The notes below the pieces were generated by a model that searched no databases, had not been told where the DNA came from, and saw only the letters and a program-made list of their open reading frames with translations. A stretch of DNA of 64,000 nucleotides from Rheinheimera mangrovi. GTDB lineage: Bacteria; Pseudomonadota; Gammaproteobacteria; Enterobacterales; Alteromonadaceae. The stretch covers positions 1,936,501-2,000,500 of the forward strand of contig NZ_CP034683.1 of the NCBI RefSeq assembly GCF_003990335.1, given 5' to 3'. This document shows positions 3,772 to 30,319 of the stretch, piece after piece (position 1 is the stretch's first letter; every line of letters starts with the position of its first letter). Both the position numbers and the translations under genes were made by a program.

Positions 3772-4210
3772 ATAATGAAGTAAGTCACTCTTAACCCCTT
3801 ACGCTTAGCCTGAAAATAATAGTACCCACTGAGATTCGAACGCAGTCAACTGCAACGCAAACAGGCCATTACTCTGGTTGCTGATATCGTCACTTTGTGC
3901 CAAAACCTGATATTGCTTGTACAGCTGGATGAATACAGGGTGTTATTTGCTTTTACCTGAAAACAGGCACGCTTTGAGCAAATCAGCAGGCACATTTATT
4001 TGTTGCTGAAGAAGGAAAAACACTCTAATTTAGATACTTAGCGCGAACCAACCTAAAAATAACAGGCCAGAGAAAAGTAATAATGTGCCAGCACGCTTTT
4101 GGTCCAAGCTTGTAGTAGTTGGTTTTGATTAATCAATCTTTATCAATTCATGAACGCTGGCTTGTGATCTGGTATAACCAGGTAAAGTGTGCCGGCACAA
4201 TATACAAATG
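3772..4210. other. non-coding region left of the cassette array
   Basis: About 440 bases with no credible gene on either strand and, importantly, no integrase gene. Two self-complementary ten-mers, GTGCCAGCAC (near 4085) and GTGCCGGCAC (near 4189), and the pair ATAAC (near 4064) / GTTAT (4210-4214) suggest a large degenerate palindrome ending at the left edge of the first cassette. This could be a decayed attC or an attI-like site; that reading is tentative. Confidence 0.35.
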
Positions 4211-4240
4211 TTATGCCTTAGTGAGTAGGTGCTCCGAACC

Positions 4241-4561
4241 ATGAAACCAAGCGCTCCAGCAGAAATGCCGTTTACGCGAGATTCTGTACTACAGATGCTT
4301 ACTTGGGGCGCAAACCCAGAAGCATCCCCATACTCGCACAAGCAGATCGCTGAATGGTGCGATAGGTTCTGGTGTCAGTATCTCGATATTGATGCCGATC
4401 CAGCAATTGAGAGTCTGCTCCCTGTTCTCACGGACGTGGAAACTCAGTGGGATCTCTATCTGGCAAACACATATACACTTGAAGAGCTCCGAGCTAAAGA
4501 CTTTGAGGCCGAGCAAATGCCCAAGGAGTGGTTCAATGACTGGCTTCGGCAATTGGCATAA
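4241..4561 (+). CDS. cassette 1 hypothetical protein
   Basis: A 106-residue acidic, tryptophan-rich soluble protein (MKPSAPAEMPFTRD to WFNDWLRQLA) that I do not recognise. I use the ATG at 4241; the frame could also start at the GTG at 4229. It has no signal peptide or membrane span. Its stop overlaps the R'' core of its attC site, a normal arrangement for integron cassettes. The cassette opens at 4211, leaving a short leader with no obvious promoter, so expression probably depends on outside transcription. Function unknown. Confidence 0.7.
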   Translation: MKPSAPAEMPFTRDSVLQMLTWGANPEASPYSHKQIAEWCDRFWCQYLDIDADPAIESLLPVLTDVETQWDLYLANTYTLEELRAKDFEAEQMPKEWFNDWLRQLA

Positions 4562-4634
4562 CAATCGGCTGCACAGAGACCGATTTTCCGCCGCGGTGCG
4601 GCTCCAAACCGGCGCGTGAGCCGGGCGTTAGGTA
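4556..4634 (+). repeat. attC site of cassette 1
   Basis: R'' core GCATAAC at 4556-4562; R' core GTTAGGT starts at 4627, with the expected crossover between G4627 and T4628. Inner palindromic arms (CGGCTGCACAG near the left, GCGCGTGAGCCG near the right) fold imperfectly. The R'' core matches the complement of TTATGC at the left edge of the same cassette. Confidence 0.8.
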
Positions 4635-4637
4635 TCC

Positions 4638-5069
4638 ATGAACATTCTACCCATGTCAGAATCTTGTCCTAAGACTGTGGATTTGGATAAGTTAAAAAAA
4701 GAAATAAAATCAAAGAACTTGGCTGGACTTTGCAACAACACAAAATGGGATGAACTATTAACTGCTTTTAGAGCGAATAAATGGACTGTATGTAATCGTT
4801 CTAAATGGATAAACGGTTTTATATCTGACTGGGAAAATGATTGGTTTTATCACCTCCCATTTCCATTCGTTGGTGTTGAGTGGTTTGACATTAAATTTGT
4901 AAAAACAATTTTTATCATCAGAGATGGCGGCAGGTTTGAGAAAGAAACAAATTTGAAAGATGAGATTCTAAATTGTCTTAGTGATATTGGCGTAGAGTTT
5001 GAAGTCGCATCTGATTTTGTTAGGGTCTGGGGTTATGCACCAAAGTGTTATCAAGAATTTAACGGGTAA
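4638..5069 (+). CDS. cassette 2 protein, resembles DUF6678 family
   Basis: A 143-residue soluble protein. The central features NNTKWDELL, WINGFISDWENDWFYHLPF and VEWFDIKF recall the DUF6678 family of short proteins of unknown function; the match is from memory and only moderately sure. The ATG at 4638 lies just downstream of the previous attC core; an ATG at 4653 is an alternative start. Its composition is more AT-rich and lysine-rich than neighbouring chromosomal genes, as expected for acquired cassette genes. It ends three bases before its attC site. No catalytic motif is visible. Confidence 0.75.
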   Translation: MNILPMSESCPKTVDLDKLKKEIKSKNLAGLCNNTKWDELLTAFRANKWTVCNRSKWINGFISDWENDWFYHLPFPFVGVEWFDIKFVKTIFIIRDGGRFEKETNLKDEILNCLSDIGVEFEVASDFVRVWGYAPKCYQEFNG

Positions 5070-5071
5070 AA

Positions 5072-5136
5072 TACCTAACAAGGCCCAGCATTTCGCAGGC
5101 TGTGGCTGCCGGACTCGCTGCGCTAAGCGTTAGGTA
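5072..5136 (+). repeat. attC site of cassette 2
   Basis: R'' core TACCTAAC at 5072-5079 and R' core GTTAGGTA from 5129, about 65 bases in all. AAGGCCCAGC at the left and GCTGCGCTAAGC at the right form the arms. Outer cores are exact complements of each other, and the R'' also matches the start of its own cassette. Confidence 0.88.
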
Positions 5137-5139
5137 ACT

Positions 5140-5487
5140 ATGGATAGTACTGCGTCGAAATTCAGAAATTCGTGCCTAGACATTTTGAGCTTTTTATCGT
5201 CTCCGCCGAGACAGAGAAAATTTGCATCAAAAGTCGAATACATCGACTATAAAAGCGAATTTGTTTGTTGGTGGTTTGATGATTTAGTTATGGACTCCTT
5301 ACCTCCAGGGCTTGGTTTAATATCTGAACGCTTCACCCCGGATGAAATATTAATCCTCTGGGAGTTTACAAAACTTTTTGAGCGAAATATTGATAGCGAG
5401 AATCAATCTATTGATGAGCTATAAAAAGACTCTAAATGGAAAGTTGTTATGGTAGCAACTCAAGACGCACTAACAAAAATTAGGTAA
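5140..5487 (+). pseudogene. cassette 3 hypothetical protein, interrupted by an in-frame stop
   Basis: From the ATG at 5140 an open frame of 94 residues runs to a TAA at 5422-5424. The same frame then continues for 20 sense codons (KDSKWKVVMVATQDALTKIR) to a second TAA at 5485, four bases before the attC site. Cassette genes normally end close to attC. The extension also looks like a genuine C-terminal helix with a W..VM..A...L pattern, so I read the first stop as a nonsense mutation. The conserved-looking core is VCWWFDDLVMDSLPPG followed by FTPDEILILWEFTKLFE. The function is unknown. A 94-residue product could still be made. Confidence 0.6.
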
Positions 5488-5491
5488 AGGC

Positions 5492-5595
5492 ACCTAACAA
5501 GGCCATTAAAACGCGGACACAAAACAGCTGGCTTGTGCTCCTGCGTCGCCAATTTTAGCCAGCTATTTTGTGCCGTTTGTGGCGGGCGTTAAAAC
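5492..5595 (+). repeat. attC site of cassette 3
   Basis: A 104-base site: R'' core ACCTAAC at 5492-5498, R' core GTTAAAA from 5588. A strong inner hairpin pairs CACAAAACAGCTGGCT with AGCCAGCTATTTTGTG, leaving one extra base in each arm, typical of attC secondary structure. Confidence 0.88.
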
Positions 5596-5598
5596 TCT

Positions 5599-5934
5599 AT
5601 GAGGGAGCAGGGTTTGTCTTGGAAAAAAGGGGATTTGGCGGCATATAGTTCGGTATTTCTTATCGTATTGTTTGTTGGTATTTCGTTATATTCCCCAGTT
5701 CGCGCTGTTGAATGTGGCGGGGAGTCAGATCGCGAATGCTATGTGCCATTATGGCAATCAATATCCCTATATTTGGTTATTGCTCTTTATGCTATTGCCA
5801 TGGCCGCCGGTGGGTTTGAATGGGTGAGAGGAACGCTAAACAAATTCAGCTCGGCTTGCCTAATTGTTTCATGTATGTTCCTGGCCGTATTTGTGGGTGG
5901 GCTTGTGTGGCTTTATATGCAGTCAGCGCACTGA
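5599..5934 (+). CDS. cassette 4 small membrane protein
   Basis: A 111-residue protein with three hydrophobic spans, roughly residues 14-34, 53-72 and 83-106. A periplasmic-looking loop between the first two contains two cysteines (VECGGES, RECYVP) that could form a disulfide. There is no recognised family. The ATG at 5599 lies at the very start of the cassette, right after the TTAAAACTC edge. Its TGA stop overlaps the R'' core of its own attC. Small integral membrane proteins are common among integron cassettes, but no function can be assigned. Confidence 0.72.
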   Translation: MREQGLSWKKGDLAAYSSVFLIVLFVGISLYSPVRAVECGGESDRECYVPLWQSISLYLVIALYAIAMAAGGFEWVRGTLNKFSSACLIVSCMFLAVFVGGLVWLYMQSAH

Positions 5935-5935
5935 G

Positions 5936-6001
5936 TTTTAACAAGCGCATGTTGCGGATAAATTTCCGCTGCGCTTCAATTTTCCGCAAATGCGGTCATT
6001 A
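5936..6001 (+). repeat. attC site of cassette 4, right core degenerate
   Basis: R'' core TTTTAAC at 5936-5942 is intact and mirrors the cassette's left edge (TTAAAACTC). Arms GCGCAT-G-TTGCGGA and TCCGCAA-ATGCG pair well. After the right arm, however, the sequence reads GTCATTA (from 5995) instead of the expected GTT-purine core, so the junction with the next cassette is abnormal. Confidence 0.72.
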
Positions 6002-6017
6002 TCTGCCCAAGGAAGCT

Positions 6018-6377
6018 ATGTGCAATTGCAAAGAACAACCCGCTTTAATTGATATCAGCAACAACCACTCTGATTTCAAATCAAATCTTGGCCAACTAGA
6101 TGTTGCCAATTGGGTTTTGTTAATGCGATGCCCCGATTGCAAGCAGTTATACAAAGTAGATGAGTGGGATAAATATCAAACCTGCTATGCAGTAAAAATT
6201 CGCTCATCTGAAAATTGGGAAGCATTTGACAGTGAGTCACTCATAAAACAGCAAATGGTTCAAAATCGAGGCGGTCTTAGCAATGAATCATGCATGTGGC
6301 CAGGCTGTGACATGAAGCAGGTAAAAGGCAGTGCTTACTGTGTTAACCATCTCTATTCTGGTGGTACTCGTGCGTAG
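6018..6377 (+). CDS. cassette 5 cysteine-rich, probably zinc-binding protein
   Basis: A 119-residue protein starting at the ATG at 6018, with AAGGA just upstream. The frame is open further upstream, but that part runs through the attC of cassette 4. Two paired-cysteine features stand out. MCNCKEQ at the start with MRCPDCKQLYKVDEW in the middle resemble zinc-ribbon knuckles. The C-terminal SCMWPGCDMKQVKGSAYCVNH has the C-x(4)-C ... C-x(2)-H spacing of small zinc-binding modules. It may bind metal or nucleic acid, but no named family was recognised. The stop codon is three bases before its attC. Confidence 0.72.
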   Translation: MCNCKEQPALIDISNNHSDFKSNLGQLDVANWVLLMRCPDCKQLYKVDEWDKYQTCYAVKIRSSENWEAFDSESLIKQQMVQNRGGLSNESCMWPGCDMKQVKGSAYCVNHLYSGGTRA

Positions 6378-6379
6378 GC

Positions 6380-6447
6380 ACTTAACAAGACAAGGCAAAA
6401 TCGCCCTGCTGGTTGGACGCGCTAACACGCGCCTTTGCTTGCGGCGT
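6380..6447 (+). repeat. attC site of cassette 5, left part, split by intron
   Basis: R'' core ACTTAAC at 6380-6386. Arms CAAGGCAAA and TTTGCTTG pair with one extrahelical G, the classic attC signature. The site runs to GCGGCGT at 6447 and is then interrupted. Joining it to the TAATACC at 8286 restores GTTAATA, close to a GTT core, so the intron sits two bases inside the R' core. Confidence 0.82.
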
Positions 6448-6859
6448 GTGTGTCGGGCATGACACGTAACTAGAGAGGTGAAAGTCCTCTTGCCAGGTTT
6501 TCGCAGAGCCGAAGGCTAGGAAAAGGGCAAGGGCGTTGTCGCGAGGCAGGGTCTGAAGGAAGCCCAATCCAAAATGACGGGATGATGTACAAGAACCAGA
6601 TCTGAGGTGTGATACAGCTGAGGCGAGCGGGCACGTGACCGCGAAGCCTTCCATCTGCGTTTGGGCTGTATTTTATAAATCTGGCATCTACGTCAGGAAA
6701 GTTATGTGTCTTACCCCGAGAGATCTGCATGATGTTGAAGGAACAACTGACAAACGGGCAACTGTGCGTGATCGTCATGCAGAAGTCAGCAGAGGGCATA
6801 GTAGGCGGTTTCTCAACGCTGAAGGCCCGAACATTTTCAGGTGACGGTGTACCAAATTG

Positions 6860-8194
6860 ATGATGGATATTGCATCTGCCAAGTCTCAACTGAGACCACT
6901 GCAGCAGGCAGTGGATGAAATTCAGCGCCATAAAGTACCAAACCAGCCACCAAGTAATCCAACATCATGGATGGCGCAGGTATTAGCAAAGGACAACCTG
7001 ATCCGCGCCCTAAACCAAGTGAAACGTAACAAAGGAGCTGCAGGCGTTGATGGTATGACGGTAGATAGATTATCGGATTATCTCAAACAGCACTGGCCAG
7101 CGCTAAAAGAGCAGTTAGAGACAGGCAGTTACCAACCTGAAGCGGTAAAACGGGTCGAAATCCCCAAAGCAGATGGTCGTAAGCGCAAGCTTGGTATCCC
7201 AACAGTGCTGGATCGCTTTATTCAACAAGCGATAGCACAGGTACTAAGTCAACATTGGGAAAGCCAGTTTCATAACAACAGCTATGGATTCAGACCTATG
7301 CGCAGTGCGCATCAGGCAGTGAACTACGCAAAAGCCTTGCTGTTATCAGGCAAAGGTTGGGTAGTGGATCTGGATTTAGACGCGTTCTTCGACCGAGTTA
7401 ATCATGACAGGTTGATGAGTAAGCTACGGGCGCAAATTCAAGAGCCAACGCTGCTAAAGCTGGTCCATCGTTATCTTAAGGCGAAGATTGATCACAATGG
7501 TAAACAGGAATCGTGTCGGGAGGGGGTACCGCAAGGTGGGCCACTATCGCCACTGCTTGCCAACATTGTGCTCAATGAATTGGACTGGGAGCTGGAGCGC
7601 CGCGGCCATTCGTTTGCCCGCTACGCCGACGACTGTCAGATTTACACTGGCAGCAAACGAGCGGGTGAACGAATAAAACAGAGCATAGAGCGCTTTATCG
7701 AAACAAGCCTGAGGCTCAAGGTAAATCAAGCGAAAAGTGCTGTAGCTCGGCCTTGGGAGCGAAGCTTCCTTGGTTTTACGTTCAGCCGCAGAAAAGACAA
7801 GAGACTAAAAGTGACCGACAAGGCACTGGACAGACTGAAAGACAAATTACGCGAGCTGACGCGTCGCACGAGGGGCCATAATATTGGCAGTGTTATCGCA
7901 GATATAAGAAAAGCCCTGCTTGGTTGGAAAGCGTACTTCGGTATAGCAGAAGTACAGAGTCAGCTGCGAGACACCGACAAATGGTTGCGGCGAAAGTTAC
8001 GGTGTTATATCTGGAAGCAATGGGGTAGTAAGGGCTATCGCATGTTGAGGAAAGCAGGAGTTGATAGGTTCTTAGCTTGGAACACTGCAAAATCAGCCCA
8101 TGGTCCTTGGCGCTTGAGCAAAAGCCCAGCGCTTTACATCGCCTTGCCTAACCGATATTTTACAAACATGGGGCTGCCCACCATAGCAGCATGA
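6860..8194 (+). CDS. ltrA: group II intron reverse transcriptase/maturase
   Basis: A 444-residue intron-encoded protein that helps the intron splice and copies it into new DNA sites. Reverse transcriptase blocks run from about residue 40 (AGVDGMTVD) through KADGRKRKLGIPTVLDR, NSYGFRP and the catalytic FARYADDCQIY to the QGGPLSPLLANI palm region. A maturase/X domain follows (TRRTRGHNIG, GWKAYFGIAE) and ends in the WRLSKSPAL, ALPNRYFTNMGLP tail. There is no HNH endonuclease domain, as expected for class C introns. The frame could begin at TTG 6857, ATG 6860 or ATG 6863. It lies in domain IV of the intron RNA. Confidence 0.95.
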   Translation: MMDIASAKSQLRPLQQAVDEIQRHKVPNQPPSNPTSWMAQVLAKDNLIRALNQVKRNKGAAGVDGMTVDRLSDYLKQHWPALKEQLETGSYQPEAVKRVEIPKADGRKRKLGIPTVLDRFIQQAIAQVLSQHWESQFHNNSYGFRPMRSAHQAVNYAKALLLSGKGWVVDLDLDAFFDRVNHDRLMSKLRAQIQEPTLLKLVHRYLKAKIDHNGKQESCREGVPQGGPLSPLLANIVLNELDWELERRGHSFARYADDCQIYTGSKRAGERIKQSIERFIETSLRLKVNQAKSAVARPWERSFLGFTFSRRKDKRLKVTDKALDRLKDKLRELTRRTRGHNIGSVIADIRKALLGWKAYFGIAEVQSQLRDTDKWLRRKLRCYIWKQWGSKGYRMLRKAGVDRFLAWNTAKSAHGPWRLSKSPALYIALPNRYFTNMGLPTIAA

Positions 8195-8210
8195 TTAGGA
8201 TTATGAAAAT

Positions 8211-8285
8211 GAACCGCCGTGTACGTGATCCGTATGCACGGTGGTGTGGGAGGAGAGGCGCTGTGAGGCGTCTCCCTATCCCGAT
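8211..8285 (+). ncRNA. group II intron domains V and VI
   Basis: Domain V: ACCGCCGTG pairs with CACGGTGGT and TACG with CGTA around an internal bulge; the CGC in the 5' strand fits the CGC triad of class C introns. Domain VI: GGGAGGAGAGGCGC pairs with GCGTCTCCCTATCCC. The 3' splice end is CCCGAT. Confidence 0.82.
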
Positions 8286-8486
8286 TAATACCTGCAACTC
8301 GCCGATCGTGGACCCAAAAGCAATGCAAGTCGATAGCGAACCTTTATTTCAGTTAACTTGTCACTTGTAAACAACCGCTTAATCCAGTGCCATCCTCATA
8401 CTCCATAAACCAAGCCGCACTAAAGTAGCTGTAGTGCACCCAACTAAGATAAGCTGGGTTTTTGTCGTCTTTAGCCTGGGGGTTTT
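8286..8486. other. right edge of the island and thiolase leader
   Basis: About 200 bases with no gene. It starts with TAATACC, the displaced end of the last attC core. No complementary GGTATTA core is found further right, so no sixth cassette is supported. The thiolase gene at 8487 follows. Confidence 0.45.
8438..8463 (+). terminator. possible terminator closing the island
   Basis: ACCCA/TGGGT stem with an inner CT/AG pair, followed by five T. It would isolate the thiolase gene from transcription coming through the cassettes and intron. Confidence 0.5.
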
Positions 8487-30034: not shown

Positions 30035-30180
30035 TATAGACCAGAAGAGGAGCGTTAACCAGGTAGAACATCTCAGGCTGCTACAAGCCGCAGGATGTTT
30101 GAGGGGGATTAACGCCGAGGACCAGATGCTGTAGCGGCAGAGGGTCCGGTTGTTAAGGCTGAATCCTTACGACTGTCACC
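30035..30180 (+). ncRNA. lysine riboswitch (L-box) upstream of lysC
   Basis: The leader of the aspartokinase gene contains the conserved L-box pieces in the right order: AGAGGAGCG, a GTAGAACATC arm returning as GGATGTTTGA, GGGGGATTAACGCCGAGGACC, a GGTCC-containing arm, and the near-invariant tail GACTGTCACC. The layout follows the Escherichia coli lysC leader. Binding of lysine would lower lysC expression, by hiding the start region or by termination at the following TTTTTT. Confidence 0.85.
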
Positions 30181-30319
30181 TGTTTTTTGTGGTGGAGAGC
30201 TTCTGGCCTTTGTGTGTCTGTGATCAGTTGTTTGCAGCATCCTGCCTGCATACAACTTTATTTACTGCCTGCAAATGCCATGCTCTGCCTTATGACTTTT
30301 TGAATAAGGAGAGACTCGA

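Follow-up and report, generated by a model that had tools for sequence, protein, structure and literature searches.

An integrase-less cassette array of Rheinheimera mangrovi headed by an attI homologue and possibly loaded in trans

Introduction

In the usual description an integron consists of one integrase gene (intI), one attachment site for incoming gene cassettes (attI) and one array of cassettes, each bearing its own attC site. A 64-kb stretch of the Rheinheimera mangrovi chromosome, which is the whole stretch of DNA analysed and is referred to here as the window, poses a question to this scheme: how did five cassettes come to be lined up where no integrase gene is found? The answer preferred here, at a probability of about 0.63, is that the locus is a satellite integron without an intI of its own, anchored on an attI site and loaded in trans by an integron integrase. 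The five cassettes would have been inserted at the satellite attI by integrase recombination (attC x attI, after the G of G/TT), with the enzyme supplied from elsewhere (the candidate in this chromosome being an intact IntI encoded 1.3 Mb away), and a group IIC intron would have invaded the last attC after cassette loading. A sequence homologous to the attI of this genome heads the array; the cassettes have not gathered at a random spot.

The array and its attI element

The open reading frames of the window include a rightward run of five small genes, from 4241 to 6377, which follow a putative attI. The features of this region are:

C1:1936501-2000500, + strand: the window; the chromosome is one contig (C1) of 4.63 Mb
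3885..4213, + strand: satellite attI element, a homologue of the intI-linked attI 1.3 Mb away; crossover between G4210 and T4211
4000..4029, + strand: possible cassette promoter (speculative), TTGTTG, 18 nucleotides, TCTAAT, within a strongly conserved block
4085..4094, + strand: GTGCCAGCAC, a motif kept in at least 90% of 43 attI copies of the genus; candidate integrase-binding repeat
4169..4210, + strand: attI core of conserved profile, CTGGTATAACCAG, then GTGCCGGCAC (4189-4198), then AATATACAAATG
4211..4627, + strand: cassette A; coding sequence 4241-4561, 106 amino acids, no family; attC A 4556-4633
4628..5129, + strand: cassette B; coding sequence 4638-5069, DUF6678 (PF20383, 108.9 bits); attC B 5073-5135
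5130..5588, + strand: cassette C; coding sequence 5140-5424, 94 amino acids, no family; attC C 5492-5594
5589..5998, + strand: cassette D; coding sequence 5599-5934, 111 amino acids, no family; attC D from 5936
5999..6446, + strand: cassette E; coding sequence 6018-6377, 119 amino acids, cysteine-rich; attC E from 6380

The attI homology of the window copy spans about 280 bp (about 3931-4210) and includes both conserved motifs and the crossover, where cassette A is joined to the element precisely at G/TT. Homology and exact junction together suggest that the head of the array is an attI, as in a complete integron; the other hallmark of such an integron, an intI beside the attI, is absent, the nearest intact intI being 1.3 Mb off. 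Across the 43 genus copies the stretches that stand out as conserved are GTGCCAGCAC, CTGGTA-AACCAG, GTGC--GCAC and AATATACAAATGTTA (the last with three bases that are conserved at 75-90% or variable), and these are candidate integrase-binding sites. A promoter scan finds no site within the attI element and one just upstream (3791-3820), at chance level.

The attC sites are recognised by a scanner trained on nine sites from elsewhere, six from the intI-linked array of this genome and three from plasmids. Sites A, B and C score 35.6, 41.9 and 29.0; against first-order Markov sequences modelled on the window, chance hits per 64-kb strand number 0.1 at scores of at least 28 and 0.06 at scores of at least 29, and a score of at least 32 is reached in none of 100 sequences. 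Two further + strand matches above 26 lie in the window beyond the array (26.4 and 26.9) and are ascribed to chance. The scanner misses attC D, which keeps R'' (TTTTAAC, 5936-5942) and has a degenerate R' (ATTATCT, 5998-6004), and attC E, which keeps R'' (6380-6386) and has its R' (GTTAATA) divided by the intron; when both intron flanks are joined, site E scores only 24.8. The fold energies of single attC sites, taken alone, are weak and non-decisive evidence (z of -0.8 for A, -0.7 for B, -1.8 for C, -2.0 for D, whose interval began two bases early, and -0.7 for E with its flanks joined). The proteins add little: that of cassette A has relatives of unknown function (the best named one, at 92%, from Rheinheimera baltica), and a few relatives of the cassette E protein bear the name metal-binding protein.

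A preliminary description, made from the letters of the DNA, had seen here five co-oriented genes each closed by an attC, forming a cluster of attC sites lacking an integron integrase (CALIN). The co-orientation and sites A to C, which are canonical, stand, while D and E are the degenerate and split sites just described. Its claim that the left edge of four of the five cassettes complements R'' agrees with the present reading, in which the edge exactly complements the cassette's own R'' in A, B, C and D and not in E. The absence of an integrase gene from the 64 kb is likewise borne out, as none of the seven chromosomal matches to TIGR02249 lies in the window. As an operational label CALIN holds, with at least two clustered attC (A, B and C, at 29.0-41.9 by our own scanner, which is not the IntegronFinder model) and no adjacent intI; what it passes over is the attI homologue on which the array is anchored.

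attI copies and integrase of the chromosome

A DNA search finds six copies of the attI element in this chromosome, and the five other than the window's are 73-90% identical to it:

3270640: attI copy, 90% identity to the window copy
3416587: attI copy, 83%
659691: attI copy, 83%
2242625: attI copy, 79%
617545: attI copy, 73%, adjoining the intact intI at C1:617866-618804

In an alignment, all six end at the same GTTA and run on into unrelated sequence. The preliminary description had supposed that an integrase elsewhere in the genome might have seeded the array, and the whole-chromosome search does yield one: the intI at 617866-618804 matches TIGR02249 with 414 bits against a cut-off of 265, its product is full length and aligns over 315 residues with IntI4 (2a3v, E 8e-83), whose catalytic motifs (R, HxxR, H and Y) it retains. 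This IntI may act on the satellite attI sites in trans and may still do so, and the window site may still be usable. A 341-bp cassette segment, 100% identical, is common to two arrays of this genome (at 0.66 and 3.27 Mb).

Cassettes may also be inserted off target, at genomic sites that are not attI (attG), a route by which CALINs have been proposed to arise (PMC8618304, PMC12444791, in the available text of each). For the window this is highly improbable because the attI alignment extends far past the crossover: an attG would be an unrelated site, and the window site is attI-homologous over about 280 bp, motifs and crossover included.

Two further observations concern this chromosome. A C-terminal intI fragment (a 51-amino-acid frame, profile positions 268-313) lies at C1:3177176-3177313 (L146 17177-17314), and the DNA-search matches include no attI copy near it. 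Insertion sequences (IS) have entered several arrays (L014, L142, L144, L145), with stretches of 1201-1239 bp that are 100% identical between loci, and one IS seems to split an attC in the array at the site labelled s327.

attI sites across the genus

Among 22 genomes of the genus, the attI element is present in 15 (the window's genome and fragments counted) and an intI above the cut-off in 18. The counts that follow cover the 43 copies with a resolved crossover, with fragments, contig ends, second pieces, G006:C1frag and G021:2126k (no crossover) set aside. They comprise: (i) five copies beside intI, (ii) three at the canonical locus without intI (G001, G004, G008) and (iii) 35 satellites, so that 38 copies from 11 genomes have no adjacent intI. 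An attC (score of at least 24) lies within 2.5 kb of 27 of these 38, and at 22 of the 27 the four free junction bases match the first R'' exactly. Random re-pairing of the 27 junctions gives a mean of 2.0 matches and a maximum of 9 (10000 rounds), and the intI-linked copies, as a positive control, have the exact junction in four of five. The five misses are the s327 copy of the window's genome (G000) and G004:C213, both with the first detected attC more than 1.2 kb off, and three copies with one differing base.

Several results weigh against loading in trans. No attC is detected within 2.5 kb of 11 of the 38 intI-less copies, and since the threshold of 24 corresponds to about 0.7 chance attC per 64-kb strand, roughly one of the 27 detected may itself be due to chance. 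Two of the five satellites of this genome lend no support: the one labelled s224 lacks a detected attC, and s327, with its IS insertions, fails the junction test. The D/E junction of the window is decayed. At the canonical locus intI is present in only five of the 11 satellite genomes (G000, G002, G011, G013, G015) and missing from six; G008, G016 and G021 (the last in one contig) have no intI above the cut-off, the intI of G001 has an in-frame stop, and G004 and G006 carry only another intI lineage. Finally, a tree of the 43 copies splits the eight canonical attI from the 35 satellites at 100/100 support, and the satellites are about 73% identical to intI-linked attI; thus, another, since lost integrase could have served them.

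The last two points also feed a different account, in which the satellites are former complete integrons minus intI, or sites served by a since-lost integrase, and several ancient integrons would survive as these arrays. Loss of intI does occur, as the gene is gone from the canonical locus of G001, G004 and G008 while attI is kept, and the 51-amino-acid fragment at C1:3177176 fits such decay. However, the 1.5 kb ahead of each of the 38 copies, which together represent the canonical locus and up to 19 satellite sites, contain no intI remnant (E below 0.05), none of the 43 copies shows intI beside a satellite-type attI, and the differing cassettes at orthologous sites (below) point to exchange without an adjacent gene. 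This account is considered unlikely. One intI-like match downstream of a copy (G002:C14) was rejected; at 30.7% identity it looks like another tyrosine recombinase.

Cassette exchange at orthologous sites

Grouped by upstream flank, the 35 satellites represent at most 19 sites, seven of which are common to two to six species; the s327 site, for example, is occupied in G000, G001, G004, G006, G013 and G021. All 32 within-site pairs conserve the host flank (best piece 84-93%), and none of the 32 has anything in common in the first 900 bp past attI (at E 1e-8; for G001:C31 only 304 bp are available). As cassettes differ at orthologous intI-less sites, exchange has continued without an adjacent intI. 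A 352-bp piece of first-cassette DNA is common, at 99%, to different sites of G002 and G013. The preliminary description had called the array a sedentary remnant, which suits the decayed D/E junction and sits poorly with these differing cassettes at intI-less attI of sister species.

The comparison with relatives lacking the island, which it had proposed, finds the window site empty in G004, G008 and G002, where about 120-130 bp separate the chemotaxis-receptor and thiolase genes. In G015 another sequence, about 610 bp long, occupies this place. The corresponding intergenic region of G021 contains a 76%-identical attI piece together with two attC-like sites scoring 26.3 and 28.6; in G021 (L244 1600-6600) attC-like sites lie between the left and further attI pieces, which form two partial elements in a row.

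Site labels cluster in the tree of attI copies, with 10 changes for all eight groups versus 20.6 with shuffled labels. Three of the seven site groups make up one side of a branch, and the other four are broken in two. Three copies from the s327 site are placed next to the window attI.

The dispersal of attI could instead be the work of an independent repeat, like a miniature inverted-repeat transposable element (MITE), that carries the attI copies, with cassette capture as a secondary event. The copies are indeed dispersed, and some at different sites have longer upstream stretches (375-530 bp) in common. Yet a fixed left end, sought by upstream comparison, is not found, and the upstream extents vary between copies (no systematic search for terminal repeats or target duplications was made); the right boundary is the crossover, and a comparison of the arrays for shared downstream sequence finds no boundary. 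A MITE-like carrier is rated improbable, and the satellite integron loaded in trans is retained as the preferred reading.

attI sites beyond the genus

A 19-base attI core pattern, with one mismatch allowed, was run on 295 genomes of the order and matches in 11 of them (own genome counted) from four genera, this one included; a reversed control pattern has one match in the 295. Of the 24 matches outside G000, 19 have no intI homology within 1.5 kb and five do, in one case as a 46-residue remnant. An attC (score of at least 26) lies downstream of 12 of the 19 intI-less matches, and 11 of the 12, in three other genera, have the exact junction. G157 has three attI copies, with intI genes elsewhere in the genome. 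In G110, a one-contig genome of another family, there are five copies and no intI at E 1e-50; four of the copies (L266, L276, L285, L287) have a longer repeated upstream region. An earlier whole-element DNA search of the 295 genomes scored two candidates per genome and recovered two of the six G000 copies, so that its near-empty result is no evidence of absence.

A wider proposal can be put forward tentatively, at somewhat less than even odds: the polycentric integron, in which one integrase gene would serve many scattered attI, with attI multiplying as a non-autonomous satellite, an arrangement that would have arisen in several genera of the order. If attI multiplies without intI and is loaded in trans, cassettes could be captured at several sites of a chromosome in parallel, and searches for attI would make it possible to test where many CALINs come from. 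A part of CALINs would then be satellite platforms overlooked since attI was not searched for.

A group II intron in the last attC

The preliminary description took the interval up to 8290 for cassettes only, which does not hold: most of its right half is a group II intron with an overlooked reverse transcriptase (RT).

6448..8285, + strand: group II intron, class C type, 1838 bp, inserted at GCGT/TA of attC E (top strand)
6535-6709, + strand: Rfam match RF02001
6747-6827, + strand: Rfam match RF01998
6860..8194, + strand: intron-encoded RT/maturase, 444 amino acids, RVT_1 and GIIM, YADD present

The match to RF00029 (8212-8285), which ends exactly at 8285, scores 37.8 bits, just under the gathering score of 40. 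The RT has GsI-IIC RT as its closest solved relative (E 2.1e-121) and matches TIGR04416 with 407 bits; a class C protein together with domain V, represented by the RF00029 match, would place the intron in group IIC. Introns of the group IIC-attC lineage occupy the bottom strand of attC, opposite to the cassettes (PMC7923331, in its available text). The window intron lies on the + strand like the cassettes and is thus termed a top-strand group IIC intron, not a IIC-attC intron.

The intron is 93.8-93.9% identical to introns of class 1 integrons on the three resistance plasmids whose annotation was examined (L018-L020), which have the same boundaries and length (1838 bp), follow aadA genes and occupy the same attC position; identity rises to 97.5% over the 5' 400 bases, and the proteins of the window and L018 are 95% identical. 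A fourth plasmid intron (L021, 1840 bp) is 68.6% identical. The intron query matches 166 plasmid records, nine with at least 80% query coverage, and the intron occurs in two of 5426 complete E. coli genomes, each time on a plasmid. The proteins nearest to the RT (95-96% identical) come from metagenome contigs, and the best named relatives (93%) from Alishewanella longhuensis, on contigs of up to 4.14 Mb. Some match occurs in 31 of the 295 genomes of the order, and a full-length one only in the window's genome; as two candidates were scored per genome, this near-emptiness is no evidence of absence. The intron connects this chromosomal array with class 1 integrons of resistance plasmids, in which an almost identical intron resides.

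Two side observations may be recorded. In G283 (C11:128288-128535, L250) the ends of a related intron (1-193 and 1774-1838) are adjacent, in what looks like an intron that has lost its open reading frame. The window also holds a lysine riboswitch at 30037-30210 (RF00168, 82.7 bits).

Comparison with known systems

The intron resembles the group IIC-attC introns in being a class C intron within attC with a maturase, and differs from them in its top-strand position, in cassette orientation. The available text of PMC7923331 mentions one group IIC intron of the same orientation, from an Enterobacter cloacae integron.

Among the titles and abstract openings listed by searches of the open-access literature, no report of dispersed chromosomal attI sites is found. 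According to the available text of PMC8618304, CALINs may arise by off-target insertion, by loss of intI or by rearrangement; PMC9229058 is cited here for Shewanella, where it reports scattered CALINs along with single attC sites, and PMC12901181 for its treatment of attI-type cassettes in mobile integrons, each likewise as far as its available text goes. Like a CALIN, the window array has several attC, co-oriented cassettes and no adjacent intI; unlike a CALIN as filed, it has an attI homologue at its head, a site that IntegronFinder, according to the available text of PMC9024848, does not detect outside class 1.

A likeness in position is to the CALINs of Xanthomonas, which are integrase-less arrays recurring at fixed chromosomal loci, seven in number (PMC12444791, in its available text). 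The same text states that CALINs can be mobilised in trans. It makes no mention of attI at the Xanthomonas loci, unlike the window array, where an attI homologue is present. With the sedentary chromosomal integron the window shares an attI, a cassette array and an exact attI-attC junction; it differs in that intI lies 1.3 Mb away and that the chromosome carries six copies of attI.

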